A DNA stretch of 34,675 nucleotides, from the NCBI GenBank assembly GCA_016202435.1, contig JACQOR010000003.1, positions 1-34,675 on the forward strand, written 5' to 3'. This document shows, one piece after another, positions 7,019 to 33,145 of this stretch (positions are counted from its first letter, which is position 1; each line of letters opens with the position of its first letter). The DNA comes from Chloroflexota bacterium. GTDB lineage: Bacteria; Chloroflexota; UBA6077; SHYK01. Under the pieces are notes generated by a model. That model did no database searches. It had not been told where the DNA came from and worked only from the letters and a program-made list of their open reading frames with translations. Both the position numbers and the translations under genes were made by a program.

Positions 7019-7087
7019 CCCGCCAACGATATGCCGCCCAGACGCCCGTCAGCAAATCCTTCCTGCGATGACAGGTCATCCCACTCC

Positions 7088-7093: not shown

Positions 7094-7099
7094 GCCGGC

Positions 7100-9325
7100 A
7101 TGAACCTGCCTCGCGAGGCTGCGCCGCCAGTCGCGGTTGTAGTCGTCAACTGGAACGGCCGGCGCTACCTCGAGTCCTGCCTCGCCGCTCTGTCGCGCCA
7201 GACGTATCCGAACCTGCAGGTGGTCCTGGTGGACAACGGGTCGACGGACGGCTCTGCCGAACTAGTGGAAAGCCAATTTCCGGGCGTGCGGCTCATTCGC
7301 AACGATCGCAACCTGGGATTTGCCGCGGCCAATAACCAGGCGATTCGCGCCACGGACACGCCCTACGTGGCGACGCTGAACAACGACACCCTGCCTGAGC
7401 CCGGGTGGCTGGCAGCGCTGGTGTCCACGGCCGAGAGCGACCCCTCGCTGGGTGCGGTGGCCTCGAAGATGGTGTTCGCCGGAGGTCTGGACACGATCAA
7501 CTCCTGTGGCATCGCACTGGACCGCGCCGGCATTGCCTGGGACCTGTTTGGTGGGTGGCCGGCGGCCGCGGTGGATCGTCCCCGGGAGGTGTTCGGGGCC
7601 TGCGCCGGAGCGGCGCTCTATCGGCGAGCGATGCTGGACGACGTGGGTTTATTCGAAGCGTCCTTCTTCGCCTACCTCGAGGACGTAGATCTGGCCTGGC
7701 GTGCCCGCCTCCGGGGATGGAAGGCTCGCCTGGCGCCCCAGGCAGTCGTGGCCCACGTGCACTCCGGCACCCTCGGGGACGCGTCTTCACAGAAACGCTT
7801 CTTCCTCGCCCGCAACAAGATCTGGACTATCGTCCGTTGTCTCCCGGGACAAGATCTTTCGGCCCTACCCTTCGTTTTCGCCTACGACCTGGGCGCTGTC
7901 TGCGTGCGCCTTCTCGAGGGCGACTTGCCGGCACTGTTCGGTCGGGTCGCGGCCATCGTGGGACTTCCCAAGGTCCTCCTGGCGCGACGTCGCATCCAGC
8001 AGCGAGTTTCCCTGACCTCCGGAGATCTCATACGCTCGGCCTACGCGCCTATCGAGCTACCCTGGCGGATCCCGGCGCGATACCGTCACCTGCAGAAGGA
8101 GGGGAGACGCCTGGTCTCTCCCAGATCCTCGGCCGTTGGCCCGGATCTCGCGGACCCGCCGTTCCGGGACCGGCTGCGCTGGCTGCTGCTCGGCCTGGCC
8201 GGGCGCCTTGCCGCGGTCAGGAGGGCCCCCCGAGCAGCGTCGGGCTCCCATCCCGGCCTCCGGATCGCGGTGCTACGACCAGATCACCTGGGTGACGTGC
8301 TCCTCTCTCGACCAGCCATCCAGCTTCTCCAGCGGGAGCTGATGCCGACGGAAGTCACGGTAATCACGGGTCCCTGGGGAGCGGCGTCGCTGCAAGGGAT
8401 CGACTGTCGGGTTGCGACCTTTCCCTATCCCGGCTTCCAGCGGGCTCCCAGACAGAGCCTGCTGGCGCCCTATGGTGACCTGCTGGCGCTCGTCGCGCGC
8501 CTCCGCCGCGAGCGGTTTGACGCGGCGCTCATCCTGCGCCCCGACCATTGGTGGGGCGCACTGGCGTGCGCGCTCGCCGGCATTGAGGTCCGAGTCGGTC
8601 ATACGACGCCCGGAACTAGCCCGCTCTTGACCCACACAGTGCCGCTCGATCCGCACCAGCAGGCGGCCCAGCGGGCGATCGCTGCGGCTGGGGCGCTCGT
8701 CGGTGCTCTTGGCATGCCCCAAACCGTGAAGGCTGGCCCTGTCACGTTTGAGCCGACGCCCGAGGCTGTGCAGTTCGCGCGCCAATGGTTGAGTGACCAC
8801 GCACCCGTTGGGCGCCATCGAGTCGTTATCCATCCGGGGTCGGGAGTGGCCCTCAAGCTCTGGCCCTCCTGGCGTTGGGCTGAGATCATTGATGCCCTCG
8901 CCAAAGAGGAGGTTGTTTCCATACTTACCGGAGGACCCGAAGACACGCGCATTGTCGCTGTGATCGGCGAGGGCGCAACTGCCCCGGCATCAGCGGCCGT
9001 CGGGTTTAGCTGGGACCAGCTGGCCGGCCTGTATCAGGAAGTCGACCTGGTCATGGGAGTCGACAGCGGGCCTCTGCACCTCGCGACCGCCGTGGGAACC
9101 CCCACGGTTCGTCTCTATGGGCCCACCGACCCCGCCATCTTCGGTCCGTCTAGCGACTCTAGCGAGCATGTCGTGATTCAGAGCCGGGTGAAATGTGCGC
9201 CGTGCGGCAACCTGGTCGCCCCGCCGTGCGGCTATCGAGGGAGTGCGCCCTGCATGGCGACGATCGAGATGGCAGAACTGCTGGCTGCCGCCCGCGGCCT
9301 TATGGCCGAGAGGGCCGCCCCGTGA
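7100..9325 (+). CDS. Fused GT2 / GT9 glycosyltransferase
   Basis: A 741-residue protein joining two glycosyltransferases. Residues ~8-275 are a GT-A family 2 transferase: VVVVNWNGRRYL, VDNGSTDGS, the NND metal motif (94-96) and an EDVDLAWR acceptor-side segment, of the rhamnosyltransferase/WbbL kind. A linker of ~110 residues contains basic and hydrophobic stretches that may touch the membrane. Residues ~387-735 are a GT-B family 9 (heptosyltransferase-like) domain with RPDHLGDVLLS near its start and DSGPLHLATAVGTPTV...YGPTDP near its end. The probable job is addition of successive sugars to a cell-surface glycan. The ATG at 7100 was chosen because GT2 begins directly after it; the frame stays open upstream but has no homology. 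The next gene overlaps by a GTGA. Confidence 0.87.
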   Translation: MNLPREAAPPVAVVVVNWNGRRYLESCLAALSRQTYPNLQVVLVDNGSTDGSAELVESQFPGVRLIRNDRNLGFAAANNQAIRATDTPYVATLNNDTLPEPGWLAALVSTAESDPSLGAVASKMVFAGGLDTINSCGIALDRAGIAWDLFGGWPAAAVDRPREVFGACAGAALYRRAMLDDVGLFEASFFAYLEDVDLAWRARLRGWKARLAPQAVVAHVHSGTLGDASSQKRFFLARNKIWTIVRCLPGQDLSALPFVFAYDLGAVCVRLLEGDLPALFGRVAAIVGLPKVLLARRRIQQRVSLTSGDLIRSAYAPIELPWRIPARYRHLQKEGRRLVSPRSSAVGPDLADPPFRDRLRWLLLGLAGRLAAVRRAPRAASGSHPGLRIAVLRPDHLGDVLLSRPAIQLLQRELMPTEVTVITGPWGAASLQGIDCRVATFPYPGFQRAPRQSLLAPYGDLLALVARLRRERFDAALILRPDHWWGALACALAGIEVRVGHTTPGTSPLLTHTVPLDPHQQAAQRAIAAAGALVGALGMPQTVKAGPVTFEPTPEAVQFARQWLSDHAPVGRHRVVIHPGSGVALKLWPSWRWAEIIDALAKEEVVSILTGGPEDTRIVAVIGEGATAPASAAVGFSWDQLAGLYQEVDLVMGVDSGPLHLATAVGTPTVRLYGPTDPAIFGPSSDSSEHVVIQSRVKCAPCGNLVAPPCGYRGSAPCMATIEMAELLAAARGLMAERAAP

Positions 9326-10521
9326 AACCGCGGCTCAAGGGACTCGCGCATCGCCTCGCGAGAATACTTTTCGCGCTGTATGGGGGCTGGAGCTGGCTGT
9401 GGGGCCCGAGACCCTTGCTTCCCTTCCCCCGGAACGCGCCCCATCGGATTCTGGTCATCCGCCTGGATCTGCTCGGCGACGCGGTGTTCTCCACTCCCGC
9501 GATTCGCGCGCTCGCGGCGGCTTATCCCCAGGCCGAGCTGGACATGCTCGCCCTTCCCTACACGGCGCCGTTGCTCCGCACGATTCCGGAAATAGGCCGG
9601 GTTTACGAACTGGACGTCAACGACTACCGACGCCCCGGCGGGCTCCTAAAAGTTGGCACACTGCTGGCAGTCATCCGCAGCCTCCGATCCCGGCGCTACG
9701 ACCTCGCGGTGTCGCTGTCCCGCCTGGTGGGAGGGATTTTCGCGGTGGCGAGCGGCGCAAGATGGCGGGCCGGACCGGCCGCGGAGACCTACTGGGGCTG
9801 CTTCAATGTTCCACTGGCCGGCCGCCGCTACGCGCCGGGGCAGCACGAGGTGGACTTCTGCCTCGCCGTAGTCCAGGCGCTCGGGGCGGATGCGCCGGGG
9901 CAGCCCATTCCCGCGCTTACCGCTGAAAGCTTCGCAGGGCAAACGACGCCCGGAGAACCGTACGTGGTGATTGTGCCCGGGGCGAGCAATGGCAGTGCGA
10001 AGCGGTGGCCCGTCCGCTACTGGGCGGAGCTCGTGGATAGGCTCGTCCGGGACAGCAGTTTCCAGGTCGTTGTGTGCGGGGGTGCTTCCGAGCGGGAGCT
10101 CGGATCACAGCTTAATTTGATGGTCCACGTTCCCGTGGTCGACCTCGTGGGGCGGACGTCAGTGCCGGATCTCAGCGGCGTCCTGGCGAGAGCCGCCCTG
10201 GTCATCGCGGGAGACACCGGCCCCCTGCACCTCGCGGCCGCCCTCGGCCGCCCGACGCTGGGGATCTACGGTCCGACGGACCCCGCCAACACCGGTCCGC
10301 GTTCGCCAATGGCTCGGGTGCTGCGGGCCGGAATTCCGTGCAGCCCCTGCTACGATCTGCGGAGCCCGGCGGAGTGCAAGCTTCCGGATCGGAGTGTGGC
10401 CTGCATGTGGCAAGTCCAGCCGGACCAGGCCTTCGAGGCGGCGGCCGAGCTCCTCGGCGCCACCCGTCCCACAGCGACGCCGAGGCGGGATCGGCGAGCT
10501 TCCCGACGGAGTGCCCCGTGA
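9322..10521 (+). CDS. GT9 (heptosyltransferase-like) glycosyltransferase
   Basis: A 399-residue GT-B glycosyltransferase of family 9, which includes ADP-heptose:LPS heptosyltransferases; in organisms without LPS, relatives act on other surface glycans. The N-terminal nucleotide-sugar fold starts at HRILVIRLDLLGDAVFSTPAIRAL, and the C-terminal half has VIVPGASNGSAKRWP and GDTGPLHLAAALGRPT...YGPTDP. The GTG at 9322 overlaps the stop of the GT2-GT9 gene (GTGA), so translation is coupled; an upstream in-frame ATG at 9193 would lie deep inside the preceding gene. The C-terminus has several cysteines (PCSPCYDL...CKL...ACM), a pattern also seen at the end of the fused GT9 domain. Donor and acceptor sugars cannot be deduced. 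Confidence 0.87.
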   Translation: MKPRLKGLAHRLARILFALYGGWSWLWGPRPLLPFPRNAPHRILVIRLDLLGDAVFSTPAIRALAAAYPQAELDMLALPYTAPLLRTIPEIGRVYELDVNDYRRPGGLLKVGTLLAVIRSLRSRRYDLAVSLSRLVGGIFAVASGARWRAGPAAETYWGCFNVPLAGRRYAPGQHEVDFCLAVVQALGADAPGQPIPALTAESFAGQTTPGEPYVVIVPGASNGSAKRWPVRYWAELVDRLVRDSSFQVVVCGGASERELGSQLNLMVHVPVVDLVGRTSVPDLSGVLARAALVIAGDTGPLHLAAALGRPTLGIYGPTDPANTGPRSPMARVLRAGIPCSPCYDLRSPAECKLPDRSVACMWQVQPDQAFEAAAELLGATRPTATPRRDRRASRRSAP

Positions 10522-11935: not shown

Positions 11936-12202
11936 TTAGCAGAAACGGAAGACGCGGCCCACGGCGAGTGCCGCCCAGGCCGCGAGCGTCGTGGCGATGA
12001 GATTCGTGTCCCCAATGGCAAGAATCGCCGGTGGGATCCAGATCCCGAGGAGCCCCCCGAGCACAGCGCCGGCGACCGCAAAACCGAGTCCCGAGGCGAG
12101 CTGCCGGAGTCCCTTCCCAAAAAAGATGTGGAATAGCGATCCGTGCACCACGCCGATCAACGCTGACAGCACGGTCCAGGGAGGGATGATGAGAATCGGC
12201 AA
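11936..12202 (-). CDS. Small polytopic membrane protein of unknown function
   Basis: An 88-residue, strongly hydrophobic protein with three likely transmembrane segments (~3-22, ~36-56, ~62-82) and little else. The TTG at 12202 is preceded by GGAGGGG at good distance, which is why I chose it. It is the first of three small minus-strand membrane genes and is separated from the second by ~60 bases. No motif identifies a function; a structural or small-channel role cannot be distinguished. Confidence 0.55.
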   Translation of the reverse strand: MPILIIPPWTVLSALIGVVHGSLFHIFFGKGLRQLASGLGFAVAGAVLGGLLGIWIPPAILAIGDTNLIATTLAAWAALAVGRVFRFC

Positions 12203-12276
12203 GATCCCCTCCGGATGAGTCCCGGTACAACGCCGCTGTGTGTCCCGCGGGCCCCCCGAACCCGGCGGAATGCGCC

Positions 12277-12282
12277 TATGAT
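12277..12282 (+). promoter_or_regulatory. Possible -10 box of recJ
   Basis: TATGAT lies 36 bases before the recJ ATG at 12319. No convincing -35 is seen 17 bases upstream, so this is a weak prediction. The gap between the divergent genes (12203-12318) would have to hold promoters for both. Confidence 0.35.
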
Positions 12283-12318
12283 AGCTGGGTCCGAATCACC
12301 GCTGAGGCAGATTCCACG

Positions 12319-14046
12319 ATGGTTCGCGAGCCCACTACCGGGACATCCCTGCCAGTAGTCCGGTGGCTGCTGGCTCCGAGAGTGGGCGAGGTAGAGCAGG
12401 GCCTCCTGGGCGTCGATTCCTTGCTCCTGGCTCAGCTGCTGTGGAACCGGGGTCTGCGGAGCTCGCCCGAAGCCCAGGCTTTTTTGAGTCCCGGTAGCCT
12501 CAGCACCCTGGGTGACCCGTTCATGATGCTGGGAATGGAATCGGCTGTCACCACGCTCGTCACGGCGATCCGGGAAGGTAACCCAATAGCCGTGTACGGC
12601 GACTACGACGTGGACGGGGTCGCAGGCGCAGCCCTCCTGGCGGAGGCACTTCGCTTCCTGGGGGGCACCGCTTTGTTGCACGTCCCGCACCGCGTTCGGG
12701 ATGGCTATGGGCTCAACAGCGAGGCGCTTCAGAGCCTGGCGCGGCGAGGCGCCAAGGTCGTCGTCACCGTTGACTGTGGCATCACCGCGAATCAAGAAGT
12801 GGAACTGGCCGCCGAGTTGGGCCTCCGTGTGATCGTCACCGATCACCACACGGTCCCGTCCCGTCTCCCCACCGCCGTTGCCGTCCTCAATCCGCACCAG
12901 GATGAGTGCGGATACCCGTTCAAGGAGCTCGCAGGCGGTGGCGTGGCGTTCCAGTTGGCCCGCGCCCTGCTGGAAAGGATGCTCCCATCGGGTCAGGTGG
13001 AAGCCCGGATCCTCGAGCTGGCGGACCTTGCGGCTCTCAGCACGGTGGCAGACGTTGTGCCATTGGTGGGCGAGAACCGGACCTTGGTAGCGCTCGGCCT
13101 CAAAGCCATGCGGCTCGGCAAGCGCCCGGGCCTGCACGCGCTGTGCGAAGTTGCCGCGCGCACCCCATCTGCGCTCACGGTGCGCGACCTCAGCTTCGCC
13201 CTTATCCCTCGATTGAACGCCGCCGGACGGATGGGAGAAGCGCAGGATGCGATCGACCTGCTGCTGGTCCGGGACCCGGACCAGGCACAAATCCTGGCTG
13301 CGCAGCTCGACGGCACCAACGACGCCAGGCGCCAGCTCATGGAGCAGCTCTCAGGGGGCGTCCTGGAACAGGCGGCCGAGATCGCCGGCGCGCCGGCGAT
13401 CGTCATCGAGGGCGATTTTCCCATTGGCCTGGCTGGATTGCTGGCCGCCCGGCTGGTCGACCGGTGGCTGGTCCCCTCGGTCGTCATCCAGCGTGGTGAA
13501 TCAGTCTCCCGAGGCTCGGCGCGCGCCCCCCAGGGCTTCGATTTGATGCAGCTGCTGGATGCCACGCGGCCTTCGCTGGTCCAATACGGTGGTCATCCCC
13601 GAGCGGCCGGGTTCACGTTGGCTACGCAAGACATCAGTGGGTTTCGCGACGCATTCTCCGCGGCCGCCAGCACGCTGCCCCTGAGCGCGAAACCAGAGCG
13701 GCTGGTGACCGCGGACGCGGCGCTGCGGCTGCGGTCGATCGGCCCGCTGCTCGCCGATCTGCTGGAGCGATTCGAGCCGTCTGGCGAGGGCAACCCCTCA
13801 CCCACGTTTGTTTCACGAGGGACCCTGGTGTCGCGCAAGGCCGGGAGCGATGGGCCCGTGCGCCTCAGAATCTCTGACGGCGACTCGGTGCGCCGCGCCG
13901 TGTTGTTTCGTCCACGAGCCGTCCCGCCCCTGGGCACGCGGGTTGAGCTCTACTATGAAGTTCGGCGCAGTCTCTGGCGTGGTGATCAGCAGATTGACAT
14001 GGTCGTCCATGAGGACGGCCTGGTTCCCCTCGCGGAGGCCGTATAA
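12319..14046 (+). CDS. recJ: Single-stranded-DNA-specific exonuclease RecJ
   Basis: A 575-residue DHH/DHHA1-family nuclease that degrades single-stranded DNA 5'-3' in recombination and repair. The catalytic motifs are all visible: DYDVDG at 95-100, VDCGI at ~151-155, DHH at 175-177, a GGVAFQLA motif, and the RLNAAGRMG segment. The C-terminal DHHA1 region contains YGGHPRAAGFT and an OB-like tail (~470-575). The length is typical of compact RecJ proteins. The ATG at 12319 was chosen because family similarity starts shortly after it; the in-frame ATG at 12238 lacks support. The stop codon is embedded in the -10 box of the next gene. It sits outside the herA-nurA unit but belongs to the same theme of DNA-end processing. 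Confidence 0.93.
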   Translation: MVREPTTGTSLPVVRWLLAPRVGEVEQGLLGVDSLLLAQLLWNRGLRSSPEAQAFLSPGSLSTLGDPFMMLGMESAVTTLVTAIREGNPIAVYGDYDVDGVAGAALLAEALRFLGGTALLHVPHRVRDGYGLNSEALQSLARRGAKVVVTVDCGITANQEVELAAELGLRVIVTDHHTVPSRLPTAVAVLNPHQDECGYPFKELAGGGVAFQLARALLERMLPSGQVEARILELADLAALSTVADVVPLVGENRTLVALGLKAMRLGKRPGLHALCEVAARTPSALTVRDLSFALIPRLNAAGRMGEAQDAIDLLLVRDPDQAQILAAQLDGTNDARRQLMEQLSGGVLEQAAEIAGAPAIVIEGDFPIGLAGLLAARLVDRWLVPSVVIQRGESVSRGSARAPQGFDLMQLLDATRPSLVQYGGHPRAAGFTLATQDISGFRDAFSAAASTLPLSAKPERLVTADAALRLRSIGPLLADLLERFEPSGEGNPSPTFVSRGTLVSRKAGSDGPVRLRISDGDSVRRAVLFRPRAVPPLGTRVELYYEVRRSLWRGDQQIDMVVHEDGLVPLAEAV

Positions 14047-14047
14047 T
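14042..14047 (+). promoter_or_regulatory. -10 box of rplY overlapping the recJ stop codon
   Basis: A perfect TATAAT whose third to fifth bases form the TAA stop of recJ. The predicted start of transcription is ~34 bases upstream of the rplY ATG. No strong -35 is visible at 17 bases, so it may rely on activation or other contacts. Confidence 0.5.
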
Positions 14048-14087
14048 CCTGCTTTCCGGACTCGTCACCCCCTCGGAGACTGCCTTC

Positions 14088-14753
14088 ATGCAAGCCGAAC
14101 GCGCCCAGCTTGCCGCCAGGACGCGAACCCTCAAAGGAAAACGCGCTCGCTTTCTGCGCCGCGCGGGCTTTACGCCTGCCAATATCTACGGGCCCGGATC
14201 ACCTTCGCTAGCAGTAGAGATCCCGACTCGAGAACTGGAGCGCCACCTGGGGCACGTTCCTCGGGGAGCACTCGTTTCCCTCGGCATCGAAGGGCAGGGA
14301 GACGTCACCGTGCTGGTGCGGAAAGTTGCCCGGAAGCCGACCACTGACGAGCTCTACCACGTCGATCTGTACCGAGTCTCAATGACCCACACCTTGCGCA
14401 CCGAGGTACCGGTAGTGTTCACGGGCGAGGCGCCCGCGGTAAGGTCAGCCAATGCCACGATTCTGCGCGGTATCGACGCCCTTCACATTGAGTGTCTGCC
14501 CGTTGACCTGCCCGAGAAAGTCACTGTCGATATTGAGCAGTTGACGGAGATTGGCTCAGCGATCCACGTGCGCGACCTTGCCCTTCCTCCCCGGGTGAAT
14601 TGCCTCACCGACCCTGACGAAATCGTGGTTCACGCCGTGGCGCCGCGGCTCGAGATTGAAGAGGTGGTCGAGGAGGAAGAGGGGGCGGCCCTCGCCCCCG
14701 CGCCCGCTGCTGCCGAAGCAGAGCCCGAACGCGGCGAAGAGAAAGAGGCCTGA
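14088..14753 (+). CDS. rplY: 50S ribosomal protein L25 (CTC/TL5 type)
   Basis: A 221-residue L25 of the long CTC form. Residues ~5-95 are the 5S-rRNA-binding L25 domain (KGKRARFLRRAGFTPANIYG...). Residues ~100-185 are the C-terminal beta domain, with RTEVPVVFTGEAP, IECLPVDLPEKVTVDIEQL and VRDLALP. The last ~35 residues form an acidic/alanine tail common in high-GC bacteria. It binds 5S rRNA in the large ribosomal subunit. It begins 41 bases after recJ with its own TATAAT box and ends before a strong bidirectional terminator, so it is probably mostly monocistronic. Confidence 0.93.
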   Translation: MQAERAQLAARTRTLKGKRARFLRRAGFTPANIYGPGSPSLAVEIPTRELERHLGHVPRGALVSLGIEGQGDVTVLVRKVARKPTTDELYHVDLYRVSMTHTLRTEVPVVFTGEAPAVRSANATILRGIDALHIECLPVDLPEKVTVDIEQLTEIGSAIHVRDLALPPRVNCLTDPDEIVVHAVAPRLEIEEVVEEEEGAALAPAPAAAEAEPERGEEKEA

Positions 14754-14774
14754 CGGCCCGCACCCGAAAAAAGG

Positions 14775-14806
14775 AAGGACCCGCTCGCGGACGCGAGCGG
14801 GTCCTT
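14775..14806. terminator. Bidirectional terminator between rplY and tatA
   Basis: A 15-bp perfect stem (14775-14789 with 14792-14806). On the minus strand it is followed by CCTTTTTTC, a proper U-tract for ending tatA. On the plus strand it is followed by CTATCTATC, a weaker tract for rplY. Both genes end toward it, so it serves the convergent pair. Confidence 0.85.
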
Positions 14807-14871
14807 CTATCTATCGCCTTCCATCGCGGGGCCCTTGTCACCAAAGGCCCCCCTCTGTCCGGCCCGGGAGC

Positions 14872-15072
14872 TCAGGCCTGCGGGCTAGGCGGGTTTCCCG
14901 CCTCGGTGGACGCCGGCCGCTCCGGCTTGGGGTCGTCGTCGACCGCCGCGTGCCGAAACTCACGAATGCTCTTCCCTAAAGCTCCCCCGACATCCGAAAG
15001 CTTGCCGGCGCCGAAGATGATGAGGGCGAGAACCAGGATGATGACCAGTTCGGTAGGTCCGATTGACGGCAT
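14872..15072 (-). CDS. tatA: Sec-independent translocase subunit TatA/TatE
   Basis: A 66-residue TatA-type protein. An N-terminal membrane helix (GPTELVIILVLALIIF, ~5-20), the FGAGKL hinge, and an amphipathic helix ending in IREFRHA form the pore-lining component of twin-arginine export, which moves folded proteins across the inner membrane. I chose the ATG at 15072, where family similarity begins and AAAGGA lies upstream; the in-frame ATG at 15099 adds nine unrelated residues. It follows tRNA-Glu closely and may be co-transcribed with it. tatC is not in the window, but at least two Tat substrates are (17093 and 23517). Confidence 0.9.
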   Translation of the reverse strand: MPSIGPTELVIILVLALIIFGAGKLSDVGGALGKSIREFRHAAVDDDPKPERPASTEAGNPPSPQA

Positions 15073-15104
15073 GTGCCATCCTTTCTCCGGGAGAGCCATG
15101 CCGC

Positions 15105-15181
15105 TGGTAGCGCGTGCGGGATTCGAACCCGCGGTCTCCGCCTTGAGAGGGCGGCGTCCTGGGCCGCTAGACGAACGCGCC
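15105..15181 (-). tRNA. tRNA-Glu (anticodon CUC)
   Basis: A complete cloverleaf on the minus strand. The 7-bp acceptor stem is GGCGCGU/ACGCGCU with a G-U first pair. The anticodon stem CCGCC/GGCGG holds the loop CUCUCAA, giving anticodon CUC. The T-arm reads GCGGGTTCGAATCCCGC. Discriminator A and CCA are encoded. It lies just upstream of tatA on the same strand. Confidence 0.93.
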
Positions 15182-15220
15182 GGAGCGCCGGCAGACCCGT
15201 GGCTGCGGGACGTGGACCGT

Positions 15221-15233
15221 CCGCGAAAGTATA
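15221..15233 (-). promoter_or_regulatory. Promoter-like TATACTTTCGCGG box upstream of tRNA-Glu
   Basis: On the minus strand, 40 bases before tRNA-Glu, the sequence reads TATACTTTCGCGG. The identical 13 bases occur at tRNA-Lys (31383-31395). TATACT is a good -10 box. A TTGACG lies further upstream, but at an over-long spacing (over 20 bases). Confidence 0.45.
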
Positions 15234-15311
15234 TACGCTGGACGAGCTTCCGCTCGGCGTCAAGCTGCCGCGGCGGCTGATCCGCTGTTCGGAGGCGGAA
15301 GTCCGCGGACT

Positions 15312-16484
15312 CTAGCGGCGGCCCCGAGCCCGGTAGAACCGGGCCGTTCGCACCGCGGCGAAAGCCACCCCGAAGACGGCGGTAGCGTAGAGCAGAATCT
15401 GCGCTGCGACCAGTACACCGTCAGGAAGGAGCGACTGGCCAGTTGCTTCAGACGAGACGGAGCGCACGGTCAGGAGCTGATCTTCTTCAACTGACCGAGA
15501 AGCTGGCGCAGCCTGCATCGCCTCACGAGAGCCCGGGGCGGTGAGGTCCGCCAGATAGATATCAAAATTCCCGGCACGTGGCGAGTGGAATAGGAGCCGG
15601 TTGCCGTCGGGGCTCATCTCGAACGGCCCCTGGATGCGAACCTTTTGGATGAGCAATTCTCTGGGCGCATTGCCGGATTGAGGGATCGCCCAGACGTCTA
15701 CCCACGCTTCGGTAGCGGCGACGTGTTCTTCAACGTACGCCAGCCGACCATCCGGCAGGAACCAGGGGAAATGGGAAATCTCCCGTCCCGTAACGGCGGC
15801 CACTGGCGTTCCGGCGCTCAAGAGGAGTGTCCAGACCGTGCGCCGGTCCCCACTTCCGAAAGCCAGGGTTCTGCTGTCCGCCGACCAGGCAGCCGCGTGG
15901 CAGGCGAACGTGCAGCCATTCTCCCGCTGGTCAGAGAGTTGGCTCGTCAGGGCGCGGGGCGTCGTCGCGTCCGCGTTGACCATCCATAGGTCCATCACGC
16001 CATCCCGGTAGACGAAAAACGCGATCTTCTGTCCGTCCGGGCTCCAAGCCGGGAAAGTGCTGAAGGCCCCCAGGTCCGTCACCTGCCGTCGGCCCCGACC
16101 GTTCAGGTCCATGATCCAAATCTCTCGCTTGAGATCGTTTCCAGAATCGAACACGATCGACCGTCCATCGGGGCTCCAGGAGGGATGGCGATCATCTGCC
16201 TCATCCTGGCTGATCCGTCGCTCCCCCGACCCGTTCACCCCAACCGTCCAGATCTGGTAGAGGCCAGACCGATTGCTCTGAAAGGCGATCGAGGCGCCAT
16301 CCGGGCTCCACGCCGGCCGCACATCGTTGCCCGCGCTGGCGGTGAGCCGCACCAGCGGGGTCTGCGATTGCGCCCCCGTTGAGCCGTTCAGGGCGAGACC
16401 CAGCAGGAGAGTGAGCCCGAGGGTGCCCGCGGCGATGCGGGCCAGCCGGGCGAGGGTCAGAGGCCTGAGCCATTCAGACGCCAA
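15312..16484 (-). CDS. Membrane-anchored PD40/TolB-like beta-propeller protein
   Basis: A 390-residue protein with an N-terminal hydrophobic segment (~18-32; signal anchor or signal peptide), six PD40-type propeller repeats (WSPDG, WSPDG, WSPDG, WSADS, FLPDG, MSPDG followed by IAF or similar strands) and a C-terminal transmembrane helix (~358-380) with a basic end. The propeller is thus displayed outside the membrane. Related TolB-like propellers mediate protein binding; no enzyme residues are apparent. The TTG start at 16484 overlaps the preceding gene by 11 bases, so the two are an operon. The exact start is uncertain because of the weak initiation context. Confidence 0.75.
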   Translation of the reverse strand: MASEWLRPLTLARLARIAAGTLGLTLLLGLALNGSTGAQSQTPLVRLTASAGNDVRPAWSPDGASIAFQSNRSGLYQIWTVGVNGSGERRISQDEADDRHPSWSPDGRSIVFDSGNDLKREIWIMDLNGRGRRQVTDLGAFSTFPAWSPDGQKIAFFVYRDGVMDLWMVNADATTPRALTSQLSDQRENGCTFACHAAAWSADSRTLAFGSGDRRTVWTLLLSAGTPVAAVTGREISHFPWFLPDGRLAYVEEHVAATEAWVDVWAIPQSGNAPRELLIQKVRIQGPFEMSPDGNRLLFHSPRAGNFDIYLADLTAPGSREAMQAAPASRSVEEDQLLTVRSVSSEATGQSLLPDGVLVAAQILLYATAVFGVAFAAVRTARFYRARGRR

Positions 16485-16902
16485 AATCGAGTCCCAGCGA
16501 TACCAGATAGGCGGCCAGAGTCGTCCGAGCTTCCTCGTGTGCGTTTCCGGCCGCCACCATGCAATGAATAGCGGGACTCAGCTCCTCGGGCGACGAGCCT
16601 TCCGCGAGATTCGCCGCGTGCCGATAGGCCTCTGCAAGGTTGACCAACGCGCGTTCCTCAGCCTCCACCAGGAGGTCAGTGACCGGACTGGGCGGGAGCT
16701 GTCCCATCTTGTCTCCGAAGCCGTCCAAGCTCTCCTTGAGCTCGCCGGCGGCGCCTCGCAGCCGAGACGGGTCTGCAACCGTGGCGAACGCCCGATCGAA
16801 GAGGACAGTCCAGTCCTGAGCCAGCTCCGCGTAGGCCTCCCCCAACTCTACGGCGGTGGAGAAGGTCGCGGAGTCAAGACCGTTGCCCGTTTCGCTGACC
16901 AT
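16474..16902 (-). CDS. Unknown helical protein
   Basis: A 142-residue, mostly helical and acidic protein with no signal peptide and no recognised motif. It contains one Cys and several long Ala/Glu/Leu helices, as in four-helix-bundle proteins. It overlaps the start of the PD40 propeller gene by 11 bases and is divergent from the molybdenum-hydroxylase operon. The ATG at 16902 has only a weak ribosome site (GGAAG at about 12 bases). I do not recognise the family. Confidence 0.5.
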   Translation of the reverse strand: MVSETGNGLDSATFSTAVELGEAYAELAQDWTVLFDRAFATVADPSRLRGAAGELKESLDGFGDKMGQLPPSPVTDLLVEAEERALVNLAEAYRHAANLAEGSSPEELSPAIHCMVAAGNAHEEARTTLAAYLVSLGLDFGV

Positions 16903-17015
16903 AATTCGTCATCGCTTCCAGAACATGATGGCGGCGATTCTATTGCCCCTTTAGTGGCAAGGCAAGTTGATCGTCTGGAAACCCATAAGAGTATCGTAAG
17001 AAATAGTACGCCGCC

Positions 17016-17044
17016 TTGACTGTACAAGTGGCTTCGAGTATAGA
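17016..17044 (+). promoter_or_regulatory. Sigma70-type promoter of the Mo-hydroxylase operon
   Basis: TTGACT (17016-17021), exactly 17 bases, then TATAGA (17039-17044). The predicted start is near 17051, giving a ~42-base leader with a strong GGGAGGAGG ribosome site at 17078-17086 before the ATG at 17093. A short inverted repeat TTGCC/GGCAA (16943-16960) lies upstream and could be an operator. Confidence 0.75.
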
Positions 17045-17092
17045 AGTGGTCTGAATCAAGCCGGTATCCGGTAATCGGGAGGAGGCTCGCGA

Positions 17093-17893
17093 ATGACCGA
17101 ACAACCGAGCGCCCCGGGGGGCGGGGCTCAGGAGGAGCAAGGCGGCGAACGCATCCAGCCGATGGTGACGCGGCGGGAGTTCCTGATCGGCGCGGGAACC
17201 GGGGTCGCGGTCGCGGCAGCGGCGGCCGGTGCCGCGACGGTGATTCGACCCGGAGGGTTAGCTCCGGGAATACCCGGCGGAGCCCCGGGAGCACCGGGGG
17301 CGCCGGTTACTACCCGAGGGGGAGTGGCCCTTCCGGCTTCCATGCGGCAGGTCAACCTCAATCTTAACGGGACCGTGCACGAGCTCACGGTGGACGTCCG
17401 CGAGAGCCTCTGGGAGACCATGACCTACCAGCTCGGTCTCGCGAGCGCCAACCTGGGTTGCGATCGCCTCCAGTGCGGCGCGTGCGCGGTCGTGATGGAT
17501 GGCAAGGCGGTCAACGGCTGCGGCGTATTCACCGCGCGGCTGGGACGGGGTCAGAAGATCCTGACCGTTGATGGCATTCGGACCGGGCCGGGCATGGAAG
17601 GTTTGCATCCCATCCAGCGGGCCTTCTGGCAGCAGGGCGCGTTCCAATGTGGCATCTGCGCCCGCGGGTTCATCATGTCCGCCTACGCGCTGCTGACGAC
17701 GAATGCGTCTCCCACCCACGCGCAGATCCGGGAGGGGCTCGCCGGCAACATCTGTCGGTGCTCTGAGTATCCCAAGATATATACCGCGGTCGACACCGCC
17801 GCCGCCGAGATGAGGTCGGGCCCCGCTCAAAGGCCGGTAATGGGACCGGGCACGAGCGGGGGCCGCGTCGACACCTCATCCAGCGCCGTCTAA
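17093..17893 (+). CDS. Tat-exported [2Fe-2S] subunit of a Mo hydroxylase (PaoA-like)
   Basis: A 266-residue iron-sulfur subunit of the xanthine-oxidase family. It begins with a twin-arginine signal (TRREFLIGAG, Arg27-Arg28, then a hydrophobic Ala/Val stretch) and a Gly/Pro/Ala-rich linker (~52-80). The plant-type ferredoxin domain has C123, C128, C131 and C143; the helical domain holding the second cluster has C186, C189, C221 and C223. It passes electrons from the Mo site towards FAD and carries the whole folded complex through the Tat pore, as PaoA (YagT) does in E. coli. A strong promoter and ribosome site precede it. The other two subunits follow at 17920 and 20496. The substrate is not determined by this subunit. 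Confidence 0.88.
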   Translation: MTEQPSAPGGGAQEEQGGERIQPMVTRREFLIGAGTGVAVAAAAAGAATVIRPGGLAPGIPGGAPGAPGAPVTTRGGVALPASMRQVNLNLNGTVHELTVDVRESLWETMTYQLGLASANLGCDRLQCGACAVVMDGKAVNGCGVFTARLGRGQKILTVDGIRTGPGMEGLHPIQRAFWQQGAFQCGICARGFIMSAYALLTTNASPTHAQIREGLAGNICRCSEYPKIYTAVDTAAAEMRSGPAQRPVMGPGTSGGRVDTSSSAV

Positions 17894-17919
17894 CGAAGCG
17901 AAGGAGGAGGAGGCGACAG

Positions 17920-20484
17920 ATGCCACAACGCAGCATCGACGCATTCAAGGTTCTCTCCGACTACGAGTACGCGGCCACGCTCACCAACGAAGAGTGGCTC
18001 TCGCTTTCGGGCAACCCCGAGTACCATACCCTGATCGCCGACGATCCGAGTCTGGCCGAGGAGCTCATCGCCCGCTTCGGCATGCTCGTGCCCGGTTTCT
18101 CGGCGGCGCTGGCCGCGGCGGCAAGCGTCCCCCTCACGGGCTTTGGTCCCACGGTGAATCGGCTCGCGGGACGGGGCGGCGGGTCGGCCGCCCCGTCGAA
18201 TGCCGAGTTCAGCATCGTGGGGACCAGCGTACCCCGGACCCACGGGTTCGGAGTGGTCACCGGCGTGGGACGATATTCCGAGAACCAGACGCTCCCCAAC
18301 ATGCTGTTCATGAAGACCCTGGGCAGTCCGTACCCGCACGCCCGGATCCGGAGCATCGACACGAGCAAGGCGGAGGCGCTGCCCGGAGTGCACTACATCC
18401 TGCACCGCTTCAATCTTCCGGAGGGGTACCAGGACGTGAGCCTCGGGAGCGGGCCCCCGTTCCGCTATCTCTTCAACGAGGAGCTGATCCAGGTAGGCGC
18501 ACCCGTGGCGGTGGTGGCGGCGGACTCCGACCACATCGGGGACGAGGCGATCCGGCAGATCCAGGTGGACTACGAGGTGCTTCCCGCCGTGGTCGACTTC
18601 ATGGAGGGAACGCGGCCCTCTACGCCCAAGCAATGGGACAACCGCCTGGACGGGACCATCCTGACGATCGCCAGCCCCTTTGTCCGGGGCGATGTCGAGC
18701 GGGGGTTCGCCGAGGCGGACATCGTCATCGAGAACGTCACGAGCATGTCCACCATCCAGCACGCCGCGCTCGAGCTGACGACCGACCTCACCTGGTGGAG
18801 CACCGAGGGGGCGCGCCCGCAGCTGACCCAGATCGGTCCCAAGCGGCACGCTCACGGAGCGCGCTCGGCGATCGCCCAGGCGCTCAAGGTCGACCAGTCC
18901 CAGGTACGGGTGATCACGCCCGGCTACCTGGGCATGAGCTTCGGAAGCTTCCGGGACACTGACCTTCCCGAGATCCACTCGGCGCTGCTGTCCTGGCTGA
19001 CGGGCCGGCCGATTCGCTTCATGTCCACCCGGAGCGAGGACATGGTCACCCGGACCCACCGGACCCAGACTCGCAACGAGTCGAAGATCGGCGTGAAGCG
19101 GGACGGCTCCATCACCGCGTTCTTCACCAAGAAGTACGGGAACGCCGGCGCCTATCGGGGCGGCGGTGGGACCGGCAACTCGCTGGGCCTGGCCGAGCTG
19201 TATACGATCCCGAACCTGCGCCAGGAAAACATCGACGTCTTCACCAACATGTACCGGTACGGCTCGTACCGCTGCACCACGCACCCGAACGACACGCTGG
19301 CGCGGGAGCCGCTGATCGAGCGCGCGGCCTACGCGATCAACATGAACCCGCTGGACTTCCGACTCCGGAACCTCTCGGAGGTCGGAAATCCGGAGACCCG
19401 GCGGCCGTTCAGCAATCCAGGGATCCGCGACACGATCACCCAGACGGCGGCGGCGATCGGGTGGCGGGAGAAGTGGCACGCGCCCAAGACGAGAGAGGTG
19501 CGGCCGGGCGTGTTCCACGGTATCGGCATGGCCTGCCACGAGTGCAACCACGGAGCGGGGGGGGCACCCTCGACCGGCTCGGTGGTGATCAACGCGGACG
19601 GGACGCTCACCGTGGTCTCCGGGGCGGCCGAGGTCGGTCCCGGCGAGCGGACGGTGATGGCCATGATCGCGGCCGAGACGCTGGGCATCCCGATGAACCG
19701 GACCCGGATCAGCCCGGACGTGGACTCGGACTTCACGGCGGACACCGGCGTCACGGCCGGCAGCCGCCAGACCTTGAGCGGCGGGTGGGGCATCCACCTC
19801 GCCGCCCTGGACGCCAGGGCGCAGCTGCTGGACTGGGGGGCGCGGAAGTTCGTGGACGACGCGCGGGTCGCGGGCCAGACGATCCAGGTCAGCGCGGACC
19901 AACTCGACGTCCGGGACGGCCTGGTCTCCTTCAAGGACGACCCGGAACGCCGTCTACCGATCGCTCAGGTCATCGCCTTCGCGTCGAACCCGATCATCGG
20001 CCGGGGCGCCCACATCCACCCACCGACGTGGGAACGCGTGGCTTTCGCGACGCATGCCGCGGAGGTTGAGGTCGACACGGTCACCGGAACGATCTCGGTC
20101 ACCAAGTACGTCGCCGCCCACGACGTGGGCCGCGCGCTCAACCGGATGGCGACGGAGCAGCAGATCGAGGGGGGCGTGATCGTCGGGCTGGGCCTGGCCC
20201 TGACCGAGCAGCTCCTGGTCGACGGGGCCACGGGCATACCCATCAACGACAACATCCTGGACTACAAGGTGCCGACCATCAAGGACGTCCCGGAGAAGAT
20301 CGACGTCATCATGGTGGAGAACGCCAAGGAGTACGGCGTCTTCGGCGCCCACGGCATTGGCGAGCCGCCGGCGGCGCTGGGCTTCTCGGTAATGGTCAAC
20401 GCGGTGTACAACGCCGTGGGCGTCTGGGTGGAGGACATGCCGCTGACGCGGGAAAAAGTCCTCAACGCGCTGAAGGGAAGATAG
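17920..20484 (+). CDS. Molybdopterin-binding catalytic subunit of a Mo hydroxylase (divergent)
   Basis: An 854-residue large subunit of the xanthine dehydrogenase/aldehyde oxidase family. The first ~95 residues are an extension not seen in PaoC-type proteins. The aldehyde-oxidase a/b hammerhead domain follows (~97-215), then the Mo-binding halves. Retained features are STIQHAALEL, the YRC...DFRLRNL region, GSRQTLSGG, and GAHGIGEPP with the catalytic Glu at residue 815. The usual GGGFGGK Moco loop reads LGMSFGSFRD, and the QG-GQGT loop reads VGPGERT, so the pocket differs from well-known members. There is no signal peptide; export would rely on the Tat signal of the small subunit. A GGAGGAGGAGG ribosome site precedes the ATG. 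Family is firm; substrate unknown. Confidence 0.85.
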   Translation: MPQRSIDAFKVLSDYEYAATLTNEEWLSLSGNPEYHTLIADDPSLAEELIARFGMLVPGFSAALAAAASVPLTGFGPTVNRLAGRGGGSAAPSNAEFSIVGTSVPRTHGFGVVTGVGRYSENQTLPNMLFMKTLGSPYPHARIRSIDTSKAEALPGVHYILHRFNLPEGYQDVSLGSGPPFRYLFNEELIQVGAPVAVVAADSDHIGDEAIRQIQVDYEVLPAVVDFMEGTRPSTPKQWDNRLDGTILTIASPFVRGDVERGFAEADIVIENVTSMSTIQHAALELTTDLTWWSTEGARPQLTQIGPKRHAHGARSAIAQALKVDQSQVRVITPGYLGMSFGSFRDTDLPEIHSALLSWLTGRPIRFMSTRSEDMVTRTHRTQTRNESKIGVKRDGSITAFFTKKYGNAGAYRGGGGTGNSLGLAELYTIPNLRQENIDVFTNMYRYGSYRCTTHPNDTLAREPLIERAAYAINMNPLDFRLRNLSEVGNPETRRPFSNPGIRDTITQTAAAIGWREKWHAPKTREVRPGVFHGIGMACHECNHGAGGAPSTGSVVINADGTLTVVSGAAEVGPGERTVMAMIAAETLGIPMNRTRISPDVDSDFTADTGVTAGSRQTLSGGWGIHLAALDARAQLLDWGARKFVDDARVAGQTIQVSADQLDVRDGLVSFKDDPERRLPIAQVIAFASNPIIGRGAHIHPPTWERVAFATHAAEVEVDTVTGTISVTKYVAAHDVGRALNRMATEQQIEGGVIVGLGLALTEQLLVDGATGIPINDNILDYKVPTIKDVPEKIDVIMVENAKEYGVFGAHGIGEPPAALGFSVMVNAVYNAVGVWVEDMPLTREKVLNALKGR

Positions 20485-20495
20485 GGAGGGTAATC

Positions 20496-21488
20496 ATGAA
20501 GACCTTCGAACTGCACGACGCGACGACGGTCCAACAGGCGGTGACCCTCCTCGGGCAGCTCGGCCCAACGGCCAAGGTGCTCGGCGGCGGCAGTGACCTG
20601 ATCAGCGGGGTCATGAAGGACTGGATCCAGGGGAAGGGAATGCCCCTCCCCTCAGCGCTCGTGGACATCACCACGATCCCGCAGATGACCACGATCCAGG
20701 TCTCCGGCTCCGGCGCCCGGATCGGCGCGGCGGCGACGCTGACCTCGATCATCGAGCACCAGGAGATCCGCCGGGGATGGCCGCTGCTCGTGGACGCCAC
20801 CGAATCGGTCGCCTCTCCGCTGATCCGCAACTTCGGCACCCTGGGCGGCAACATCAACCAGAGACCCCGGTGCTGGTTCCTGCGCGGTGAGAAGTTCGAC
20901 TGCTACAAGAAGGGCGGAGACTTCTGCTTCGCGGTCACCGGCGACAACCGCTACCACGCCATCATCGGCGGCGAGTTGTGCTACATCGTGCATCCGTCCG
21001 ACACGGCGACGGCGCTCGTGGCGCTCAGCGCGAAGACCAAGATCGCCGGCCCGCAGGGGGAGCGCGAGGTCGCGTTCGACGAGTACTTCATCGGGCCGCG
21101 CACCGACGTGCTCCGGGAGAACATCCTGCAGCAGAACGAGCTGATGACGGAGGTGTCCCTTCCCCCGCTGGCGTCGAACACCAAGACCGCGTGGATCAAG
21201 CTGAAGGACCGGCAGGTCTACGACTTCGCCCTCGTCAGCGTGGCCGCGGTGGTCACGAGTGAGAACGGCGTCTGGCGCGACGGGCGGATCGTGCTCGGCG
21301 GCGTGTCTCCGGTCCCGTACCGGGCCAAGGTCGTGGAGGATGCGCTCCAGGGCAAGGACATCAGGGCCAACATCACCGCGGCTGCCGGTGCGATCCGCAG
21401 CGTGGCGCGGCCGATGAGCGCGAACTCGTACAAGGTGGACATCGCCCAGGGGCTGATCGAGAGGGCGGTGCTGCAGGCGCTCGCCTGA
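20496..21488 (+). CDS. FAD-binding subunit of a Mo hydroxylase (PaoB-like)
   Basis: A 330-residue FAD subunit of the xanthine-oxidase family (vanillyl-alcohol-oxidase-type FAD fold plus CO-dehydrogenase-flavoprotein C-terminal domain). FAD motifs are VLGGGSDLI (~28-36) and IRNFGTLGGNI (~110-120). A following insert has C126, C136, C144 and C162, in the region where PaoB-type and 4-hydroxybenzoyl-CoA-reductase-type subunits bind an additional [4Fe-4S] cluster; cluster binding here is inferred. It starts 11 bases after the Mo subunit with GGGAGGG upstream. The gene order Fe-S, Mo, FAD differs from E. coli paoA-paoB-paoC. A strong terminator follows directly. Confidence 0.87.
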   Translation: MKTFELHDATTVQQAVTLLGQLGPTAKVLGGGSDLISGVMKDWIQGKGMPLPSALVDITTIPQMTTIQVSGSGARIGAAATLTSIIEHQEIRRGWPLLVDATESVASPLIRNFGTLGGNINQRPRCWFLRGEKFDCYKKGGDFCFAVTGDNRYHAIIGGELCYIVHPSDTATALVALSAKTKIAGPQGEREVAFDEYFIGPRTDVLRENILQQNELMTEVSLPPLASNTKTAWIKLKDRQVYDFALVSVAAVVTSENGVWRDGRIVLGGVSPVPYRAKVVEDALQGKDIRANITAAAGAIRSVARPMSANSYKVDIAQGLIERAVLQALA

Positions 21489-21510
21489 CCCAGCTTCCGA
21501 CGAGACGGAG

Positions 21511-21548
21511 AAACGTTCGGGGGGCCGAGGCCCCCCGAACGTTTTCTT
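21511..21548 (+). terminator. Strong intrinsic terminator of the Mo-hydroxylase operon
   Basis: A 14-bp perfect stem (AAACGTTCGGGGGG at 21511-21524 with its complement at 21531-21544), a 6-base loop, and a T-rich tail (GTTTTCTT). It starts 22 bases after the stop of the FAD subunit. Confidence 0.88.
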
Positions 21549-21576
21549 CGACTTATGCGGAGGTCCGCTCCCGGAA

Positions 21577-22167: not shown

Positions 22168-22995
22168 CTAGGCGGGACCGGGGGGCGCGGCGTTCAGGAT
22201 CTCGGTCATGTGGCGCAGCATCTCCCCGTGGAGGACGCCGTTGGTGGCGAGGTAGCTCCGGTCGGCGAAAAGCCACGAGCCGCCCTGGGCGCTGGTTAGG
22301 ATTCCGCCGGCCTCTTTCAAGATGACTGCTGCTCCCGCCACGTCCCACAGGTCCAGATCCAGTCCCAAATACGCATGCAGGCGCCCAGCCGCCAGGTAGC
22401 AAAGTCCGAGAGACGGCGCGCCCATGACGTTGAGCGCCAGCACATTGCTGGCCAGCATCTGCACCAGCTGGAGACTCTGAGTGCGTCGCCGCCCCTCGCG
22501 GGCCAGGTCCATCCCCAGCACGGCGTTCTCGAACGCCTCGAACGCTTCGCTCACCTGTTCGACCACGATGGGCTGGTCGTTGAGCCGGGCGCCGCGCCCC
22601 TCCACTCCCTGGAACAGCTCGTCGCGGCACGGGTCGTAAACGACGCCCACGCGATAGATTCCCTTCCGACGATATGCCAGGCTGATCGCAAACAGCGGCA
22701 GCGCCTGCTGATAATTCAAACTGCCGTCGATCGGGTCGACGATCCACAACGGATCGGCGTCAGCCGGCGGAGCGGTGTCGGATTCTTCCGCCAGGATCGG
22801 GTGCTCGGGGAAGTCTTGTTGGATCTCGGCCACGATGGCTTGCTGGACCACCCGAGCGGCCTCGACCTCGACATCCCGCATGCCTTTCCAACGGACATAA
22901 CCCAGTTGCCCAAGATGGCCGAGTGCGACCGCTCCGCCCGCGCGCGCGGCACGTACCGCCGTGGTGAGAATCTGGGTATCGTCCGACTCGTCCAT
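22168..22995 (-). CDS. Inositol monophosphatase family phosphatase
   Basis: A 275-residue Mg-dependent sugar/inositol phosphatase. Metal-binding motifs are present: ILAEESD (Glu70, Glu71), WIVDPIDGSLNY (Asp87, Asp90) and DLWDVAGAAVILKEAGG. Members hydrolyse inositol-1-phosphate, fructose-1,6-bisphosphate, 3'-phosphoadenosine 5'-phosphate or related compounds, and sequence alone does not separate these here. The ATG at 22995 has a clear GGGAGAG ribosome site. The gene is divergent from the unknown gene at 23052, leaving a 56-base promoter gap, and faces copy A of the repeat at its 3' end. Confidence 0.87.
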   Translation of the reverse strand: MDESDDTQILTTAVRAARAGGAVALGHLGQLGYVRWKGMRDVEVEAARVVQQAIVAEIQQDFPEHPILAEESDTAPPADADPLWIVDPIDGSLNYQQALPLFAISLAYRRKGIYRVGVVYDPCRDELFQGVEGRGARLNDQPIVVEQVSEAFEAFENAVLGMDLAREGRRRTQSLQLVQMLASNVLALNVMGAPSLGLCYLAAGRLHAYLGLDLDLWDVAGAAVILKEAGGILTSAQGGSWLFADRSYLATNGVLHGEMLRHMTEILNAAPPGPA

Positions 22996-23516: not shown

Positions 23517-24320
23517 GTGGAACGCGAGCCCCGGCGACCGGCTGGAGATCAGCCCCCAGGTGCTTCGACCGAGGGGGGCCCTCCCGAACTGACGCGGCGC
23601 ACGTTCGTCAAGGGAGCCGCCGCCGTAGGCCTGGCCGCGGGCGCCGGCGCTGTTGGCGCCACGAACCTGGCAGCGGGGAAGCAGCTCCCCGGCCAGAGGC
23701 TCTCCGACGGGGTGATCTTTCCCGATCCGACCCTCTGCATTGGCTGCCTGACCTGCGAGGTGCGCTGCTCAGCCGTCCACAAACAAGTTGGCCTCTCCGC
23801 CGTGCCCCGGATTCGCATCTACAACGACCCTTCCGTCGAGGTCCATCCCGAGATCCAGCGCAACTACCCGGACCGCGGCTCGTTCGTTCAGGAGCCGTGC
23901 CTCCAGTGCCCCACGGCGGAGTGCGTACACGTCTGCCCGGTGAACGCATTCAGAATCGAGGGCCGGACCGGAGCTCGGTACATCGACGAGGACGTCTGCG
24001 TGAGCTGCGGTCGGTGCGCCGAGGCGTGTCCGTTCCCCGTAACTCTGGAAGAGCGGGCCACGAACGGGCTGAAGCTCCACCAGGAGACCCGCATCACCTA
24101 CGACCCCGAGGCAGACACCTTCGCGAAATGTGACATGTGCTACTGGCGGGCCGAGGGTCCCGCCTGCGTCGAATCGTGTCCGGTGAACATCCGCATCCGG
24201 CAAGGAATCATCAAGAGCGACGTGATGTGCCTGGATGCCCCGAAAGCGGACCAGCAAACCTGGCAGCGCCTGACGTTCTTCCAGACCTTTCCCGGAAGTC
24301 CGGCACCCAGGCAAACGTAA
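23517..24320 (+). CDS. Tat-exported four-cluster [4Fe-4S] ferredoxin (FdnH/NrfC/DmsB-like)
   Basis: A 267-residue electron-transfer protein with a twin-arginine signal (TRRTFVKGAA, Arg27-Arg28) and sixteen cysteines in four clusters: C74/77/80/84, C128/131/136/140, C161/164/167/171 and C205/208/217/221. This is the arrangement of the beta subunits of membrane-bound molybdopterin oxidoreductases, which pass electrons between a catalytic subunit and a membrane cytochrome. The GTG start has AGGAG 7 bases upstream. The next gene, a b-type cytochrome, begins 21 bases later. No molybdopterin catalytic subunit of that superfamily is adjacent. A TAGAAT box ~45 bases upstream may be its promoter. Confidence 0.88.
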   Translation: MEREPRRPAGDQPPGASTEGGPPELTRRTFVKGAAAVGLAAGAGAVGATNLAAGKQLPGQRLSDGVIFPDPTLCIGCLTCEVRCSAVHKQVGLSAVPRIRIYNDPSVEVHPEIQRNYPDRGSFVQEPCLQCPTAECVHVCPVNAFRIEGRTGARYIDEDVCVSCGRCAEACPFPVTLEERATNGLKLHQETRITYDPEADTFAKCDMCYWRAEGPACVESCPVNIRIRQGIIKSDVMCLDAPKADQQTWQRLTFFQTFPGSPAPRQT

Positions 24321-24341
24321 GATCCCAGGGGGTTCTCGGCA

Positions 24342-25310
24342 ATGAGCTGGCTGGCATTCGCGATCGGCCTGATTCTCGCCGTAATCGGAATTGGCGGGGC
24401 CATTGCGCTGGCATCCTCGAGCGCGCAGCCCTGGGACCCGGAGCTCACCGACAATCTCATCTTTGCCAAGTCACTTCCGTTTATCCTGGGCTTCGGCATC
24501 CTGTCCGGTCTCGCGCGGGCCGCTTCTGATCGGTGGGTAACGGAGCGTCGGCCCGACGGAGCCATCCGCAGATTCAGCCCCGGCACAGCACTGAACCACT
24601 GGATCAACGCGCTCGGTTTTCTCATCGCCATCACCACCGGAAGCGTCCAGTACCTGATAGGCGTGGCGGACGCAACTCTGCCATTCCCATTATTCTGGGT
24701 CTATCGCCTTCACTTCATTGGCGCTTCGTTGATGGTGTACTCCGCGGCGCTCTTCGTCACCCATCGCCTGATCACGGGAGATACGAGGCTCCTGCCGGGA
24801 CGCGGAGAATGGATCCGTCACTTCCGGGGCCTGGCCCATGAGCTACCCCGGCCGCTGGGGAACGTGGTAGCGGGAGTCCTCGGGCTCGATCTCCGGAGAG
24901 AGCCGCCGCCGGTGGGCCAGTTCACCTACTATGAGAAGGCCTTCTCTTTTCCGGTCTGGGTGCTTTTGCTGGGACTCATCATCGTGACCGGCCTGCTGAA
25001 GGCCATGCGGTACGTCGCCCCCATACCGGGAGAAGTCCTGTGGTGGGCGAGCGCCCTGCACGTAGCGGCGATGATCCTCCTGGCCGCGAAATTCCTCGAC
25101 CACCTCCGGTACGTGCTCGCCCCGTCACGATGGCCACTGCTCCGTTCCATGGTGCAGACGTGGGTGAGTCAGGAGTACGTCCGGCTGCGGCACCCCCTCT
25201 GGTTTGAGTCCGTCCAGCGAGAAGAACGCGGTCCGGCCCCGGGAGGAGTGGGCTCCGCTCCTGAGCCGGCTCGGGGGGGGCCCCACGTAGCCGGAGGGAG
25301 CGGCCCGTGA
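24342..25310 (+). CDS. Cytochrome b561/FdhI-like membrane subunit
   Basis: A 322-residue membrane protein with about six hydrophobic segments (~3-23, 44-60, 85-106, 117-140, 203-222, 232-253). Histidines at 86, 124, 141, 240 and 254 lie in or at the ends of helices and can ligate two b haems, as in formate dehydrogenase gamma subunits, which connect a periplasmic Fe-S subunit to the quinone pool. The YYEKAFSFPVW and ALHVAAMILL segments are typical of that group. The C-terminal ~45 residues are Gly/Pro-rich and probably disordered. It follows the exported ferredoxin and overlaps the next gene by GTGA, so all three should form one complex or operon. Confidence 0.82.
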   Translation: MSWLAFAIGLILAVIGIGGAIALASSSAQPWDPELTDNLIFAKSLPFILGFGILSGLARAASDRWVTERRPDGAIRRFSPGTALNHWINALGFLIAITTGSVQYLIGVADATLPFPLFWVYRLHFIGASLMVYSAALFVTHRLITGDTRLLPGRGEWIRHFRGLAHELPRPLGNVVAGVLGLDLRREPPPVGQFTYYEKAFSFPVWVLLLGLIIVTGLLKAMRYVAPIPGEVLWWASALHVAAMILLAAKFLDHLRYVLAPSRWPLLRSMVQTWVSQEYVRLRHPLWFESVQREERGPAPGGVGSAPEPARGGPHVAGGSGP

Positions 25311-33097: not shown

Positions 33098-33145
33098 CAC
33101 GAACCTCTTCTCTCCCGCCCCGGTGGTAGAGATCAAGTGGGGCGC

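Follow-up and report, generated by a model that had tools for sequence, protein, structure and literature searches.

Results

Organization of the operon

The DNA analysed here, a stretch of 34,675 nucleotides from a Chloroflexota genome that we refer to as the window, carries on its plus strand three intact, adjacent open reading frames encoding, in order, an Fe-S subunit (17093-17893, 266 aa), a Mo subunit (17920-20484, 854 aa) and an FAD subunit (20496-21488, 330 aa). These genes constitute a genuine operon for a three-gene molybdenum enzyme, and because homologous operons are found at about 20 further loci, the arrangement lies far beyond chance. The original prediction had described a complete promoter-to-terminator operon in this order, with a Tat signal on the Fe-S subunit. 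The gene order and the signal were borne out by the reading frames, the Pfam domains and the motif TRREFL, while the transcriptional part of the description is half supported: a real intrinsic terminator, a hairpin with a T tail, is located at 21505-21553 (+; folding energy -37.7 kcal/mol, z = -6.4), but a scan of the plus strand upstream of the operon revealed no sigma-70-like promoter.

The Fe-S subunit, recognized from its sequence, the Pfam domain Fer2_2 and relatives that possess an RRxFL motif, retains the Cys residues of both [2Fe-2S] clusters, and its Tat motif (TRREFL, 17171-17185) is followed by a hydrophobic stretch. The FAD subunit (Pfam FAD_binding_5 and CO_deh_flav_C) contains a PaoB-type insert at 20871-20981 with four Cys residues (Cys126, 136, 144 and 162), all four of which align with those of PaoB. 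This predicted [4Fe-4S] site, which goes beyond what the original prediction described, is kept at the loci of the clade defined below wherever their sequence reaches that region, and is absent from the sister group.

Other genes of the window include selA (5618-7018, minus strand; PF03841, E 5e-136), encoding selenocysteine synthase and pointing to selenocysteine use; no tRNA-Sec was detected in the window. The stretches 6263-10521 and 33345-34412 contain glycosyltransferase genes of families 2 and 9 and a GH99/WbsX-like gene, and two long open reading frames on the minus strand (154-2007 and 31484-33136) that lack a Pfam match encode uncharacterised proteins or are chance frames in GC-rich DNA.

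Fold and active-site motifs of the Mo subunit

The domain composition, alignment and predicted structure of the Mo subunit place it in the xanthine oxidase family. Its Pfam scores for the hammerhead, MoCoBD_1 and MoCoBD_2 domains (77, 154 and 196 bits) exceed the cut-offs of 31, 27 and 27, and the AF2 model built from 80 sequences, which was used in place of a 6-sequence run of pLDDT 48, reached a pLDDT of 87.8 and a pTM of 0.84. Foldseek matched this model to HcrA (TM 0.79/0.88), PaoC (0.76/0.88) and CO dehydrogenase (CODH; 0.77/0.82), and TM values by query of 0.73-0.79 indicate that the overall fold is that of the family. The possibility that the structure would bar the molybdenum cofactor (Moco) had been raised beforehand; the model, computed without Moco, gives no sign of exclusion and suggests that the subunit keeps the ordinary xanthine oxidase fold.

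The homologous core of the subunit begins at about residue 93-99, so that the predicted count of about 95 extra residues before the hammerhead domain is correct. In the AF2 model, residues 1-60 of this extension (17920-18204) are mostly helical and residues 62-94 form a disordered linker. A Pfam search with the extension gave no match. It is common to the clade, centered on the pattern LT..EW..L..NP.W..L..E, and a related extension is found in the sister group.

The active-site motifs quoted in the original prediction, GAHGIGEPP with the catalytic Glu815, LGMSFGSFRD and VGPGERT, are all present. The Moco loop does not conform to the canonical GGGFG, which is a variation of motif rather than a failure at the domain level; it reads GYLGMSFGSF (residues 335-344, 18922-18951) and has one inserted residue. 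Arg309 (18844-18846) occupies the position of the active-site Gln, which is present in 14 of 17 clade members and is replaced by Arg in the window and at locus L009, and the segment from His811 to Glu815 (20350-20364) has His where nearly all other subunits have Lys. Both family residues Glu815 and Arg451 are present here and invariant across the clade.

A distinct clade with a sister group

Homologue searches covered relatives, the class, the phylum and a second class of the phylum. They yielded a clade of 22 distinct Mo subunits, including that of the window and fragments, which are 48-76 % identical to the window protein and come from two Chloroflexota classes; the next-best Mo subunits outside it are 35-38 % identical. 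A scan of genome contigs with one protein reached a single clade member, and a plasmid search gave nothing above about 33 % among the matches listed. The clade received 100 % support in a 71-row tree and 100/100 in a 23-row tree, and its union with a sister group of three loci (L109, L110 and L164) received 99 % and 93/98, respectively. The clade's side of the tree also includes PaoC and many PaoC-like proteins of Chloroflexota; on the opposite side are CoxL, QorL, 6-hydroxypseudooxynicotine dehydrogenase, HcrA and XdhA. Neither tree places a reference enzyme inside the clade, and we found no description of it in open-access papers. The clade thus appears, as judged from its sequences, to lack a characterised member. 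The proposal of a distinct clade, which was to be abandoned if the large subunit fell inside a characterised clade with the same loop and extension, is therefore upheld by the branch support, the shared extension and the position of the reference large subunits.

The loop behaves differently from what had been expected of it. Most clade members have one extra residue and the form GY[VLM]GSGYG, with F changed to Y, and the GMSFG of the window is the extreme case. An altered active-site surround is seen clade-wide, as had been proposed, but the loop proves less unusual than at first sight, and SFGS is the end state of the window protein and not the mark of the clade. We rejected the loop as the defining trait because the sister group keeps a canonical GGGFGDK loop and yet shares Cys452, the HxCxH strip and a related extension. 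The altered loop is genuine for the clade, although other shared traits run deeper. At the sister loci (L109, 7069-13064; also L110 and L164) Fe-S, Mo, FAD, ferredoxin and cytochrome b genes form one run, and the operon combines the Cys and an HxCxHG strip with the canonical loop and lacks the four-Cys insert.

A conserved Cys and a His-Cys-His strip

The residues that unite the clade with its sister lie elsewhere in the Mo subunit. In a joint alignment that took in four CoxL sequences, three of which score above the curated CODH cut-off, the clade motif [ASP]YRC falls exactly on the AYRC/AYAC of CoxL. In the window this motif is part of SYRCTTHPNDT (residues 449-459, 19264-19296), and Cys452 (19273-19275) aligns with the Cys that binds Cu in CODH (motif AYRCSFR), with SFR replaced by xHPN. 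The second element is HGIGMACHECNHG (residues 533-545, 19516-19554), which contains His533, His540, Cys542 and His544. Cys452, His540, Cys542 and His544 are invariant in the clade and sister group, and none of 59 other subunits has Cys452, Cys542 or His544; the only invariant Cys residues of the clade are Cys452 and Cys542. A scan for columns conserved in clade and sister and present in under 20 % of the 59 others identified 13 signature columns, six of which are Cys or His (Cys452, His520, His533, His540, Cys542 and His544) relative to 0.4 expected, a nominal binomial p of 9e-7 that ignores shared ancestry. Common origin of Cys452 and the CoxL Cys was rejected (AU test, p 2.7e-7), so the correspondence is convergent.

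A ferredoxin and a cytochrome b near the operon

Two kilobases downstream of the operon, at 23517-25310, lie a gene for a poly-[4Fe-4S] protein of the NrfC/HybA/FdnH kind, which carries a separate Tat motif, TRRTFVKG (23517-24320, +), and a gene for a membrane cytochrome b resembling the formate dehydrogenase gamma subunit (24342-25310, +). Homologues of one or both genes accompany 13 loci of the clade and 3 of the sister group, in a number of different gene orders; among about 60 control loci that have a canonical Mo subunit and flanks of several kilobases, none has them. Both genes are co-directional behind the FAD gene at L086, L088 and in the sister group; clade locus L089 lacks the pair within its 10 kb of downstream sequence. 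In one family (f41; L104 at 12160-19000, L163, L150, L153 and L157) the module adjoins MocA, XdhC and another Mo hydroxylase, which is HcrA-like. The ferredoxin and cytochrome genes of this family run along with the operon of that second enzyme, which makes it ambiguous which of the two they serve. The curated models for the membrane modules of formate dehydrogenase N (FDH-N) and hydrogenase-2 all score below cut-off on the window genes (FDH-beta, 26 vs 335 bits; FDH-gamma, 41 vs 116 bits), suggesting that these proteins are relatives of the FDH module rather than members of it. Also frequent among the neighbors are an inositol-monophosphatase-family gene (22168-22995, -) and a PD40 beta-propeller gene (15312-16484, -).

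Discussion

The locus most likely encodes an exported, quinone-linked molybdenum dehydrogenase with a rebuilt active-site pocket, a reading to which we assign a probability of roughly 60 %. The original prediction anticipated the distinct clade, the extension and the changed loop; it missed Cys452, the His-Cys-His strip, the FAD-subunit [4Fe-4S] site and the neighboring ferredoxin and cytochrome b. We propose that the heterotrimer is folded in the cytoplasm before the Fe-S subunit's Tat signal directs its export, with the Mo and FAD subunits carried along as hitchhikers by analogy with PaoABC, for which such export has been described (PMC4273604). Outside the cytoplasm, the Mo centre would oxidise a small organic substrate with water, Glu815 acting as base; by default the substrate would be a small aldehyde-type compound, and CO is possible but disfavoured. 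Electrons would pass from Mo through the two [2Fe-2S] clusters to FAD and the FAD subunit's [4Fe-4S] site, and from there to the Tat-exported poly-[4Fe-4S] protein, the cytochrome b and quinone, a route whose step from FAD subunit to ferredoxin is suggested by gene association. The pocket would be rebuilt around Cys452, at the CODH Cu-Cys position, and the strip His540-x-Cys542-x-His544.

In xanthine oxidase structures the counterpart of residues 531-545 presumably lies close to the Mo site, on its substrate side. We infer that Cys452 and the residues of the strip work as one group, which would either coordinate a second metal near Mo or brace the pocket with a disulfide. Metal binding by this group is a tentative possibility with the odds against it, and the same holds for the full proposal built upon it, a second, independently evolved heterobimetallic Mo hydroxylase, in which Cys452, His540, Cys542 and His544 would hold a metal such as Cu in an exported enzyme with FDH-like quinone wiring and a chemistry new to the family. 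A disulfide also figures in a somewhat less probable and in our judgment doubtful alternative, an aldehyde oxidoreductase of the usual PaoABC-like type whose loops have drifted, in which Cys452 and Cys542 are paired and the cytochrome genes serve something else. The Tat motif, the PaoB-type FAD subunit and the placement of PaoC on the clade's side of the tree are consistent with such an enzyme, and an even number of invariant Cys residues, exactly two, would suit a disulfide, which is useful outside the cytoplasm. However, His540 and His544, on the same strand and equally invariant, would be left unexplained by a disulfide, and the neighbor pair is kept across differing gene orders and in the sister group.

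The exact position of SYRC/AYRC, the active-site Gln, Arg and Glu retained in most of the clade, and the quinone-linked module invite comparison with CO oxidation. Cu is bound by a Cys in Mo-Cu CODH (PMC10992861), Cys388 is located at the CODH active site (PMC7862525), and SYRCSFR is counted among the accepted form I motifs (PMC13203968). Identification of the enzyme as CODH from Cys452 was nevertheless ruled out by the motif, in which xHPN replaces SFR and AYXCSFR is not matched, by a gene order of S-L-M instead of coxMSL, by the TIGR02416 score (170 bits vs a cut-off of 991) and by the AU test. The same findings speak against an extracellular oxidiser of CO (or H2) that evolved as a Mo-Cu dehydrogenase a second time; in addition, three clade genomes also carry a true CoxL and the window has Arg where Gln is expected, and we regard this reading as improbable. 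Even less credible is a degenerating paralogue without Moco or activity. Divergence in loop and Gln is greatest in the window and L009, and the same genome (1.76 Mb, 77 % complete) has 12 further matching places for the Mo-subunit family, 13 including this one; yet the three frames are intact, Glu815 and the ligands of the Fe-S and FAD subunits are kept, L009 has similar states at 61 % identity, and the terminator is strong. Order-level relatives have up to 49 stretches matching the CODH large-subunit model, a large expansion of the xanthine oxidase family.

To our knowledge, CODH is the only xanthine-oxidase-family member with a second active-site metal, which is held by one Cys. A distant clade with a Cys at the CODH position and a His-Cys-His strip allows the origin of such sites to be tested directly. 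Chloroflexota have many Mo hydroxylases, the roles of which are mostly not known, and the exported quinone-linked dehydrogenase, if our reading is true, would link a trimer of the xanthine oxidase family with an FDH/Hyb-type membrane module and so give this phylum a new route into respiration.

Of the known systems, PaoABC of E. coli resembles the window enzyme in its separate Fe-S, FAD and Mo subunits, in a Tat signal confined to the Fe-S subunit and in the four-Cys insert of the FAD subunit. It differs in its gene order (Fe-S, FAD, Mo), in having no ferredoxin and cytochrome b genes next to it in E. coli, and in PaoC, which lacks Cys452, the His-Cys-His strip and the extension; the curated PaoC model NF041671 gives the window Mo subunit 246 bits against a cut-off of 1180. 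CoxSML, the form I Mo-Cu CODH, shares the Cys of [AS]YRC at the same alignment position, the Glu and the Arg, but it is distant in the tree, and the window enzyme is distinguished from it by its probable Tat export, its gene order, the loss of SFR and the convergent origin of the Cys. HcrABC provides the best PDB match in both sequence and fold and likewise has an FAD subunit with an extra [4Fe-4S] cluster; in contrast, it is a cytoplasmic reductase with Gly at the Cys452 position that lies on the other side of the tree, and the HcrA alpha-subunit model TIGR03194 gives 361 bits against a cut-off of 994.55. Finally, FdnH-FdnI of FDH-N and HybA-HybB of hydrogenase-2 likewise pair a Tat-exported poly-[4Fe-4S] protein with a membrane cytochrome b, but their catalytic subunits are of the DMSO reductase or NiFe type, whereas the neighbor here is a xanthine-oxidase-family trimer.
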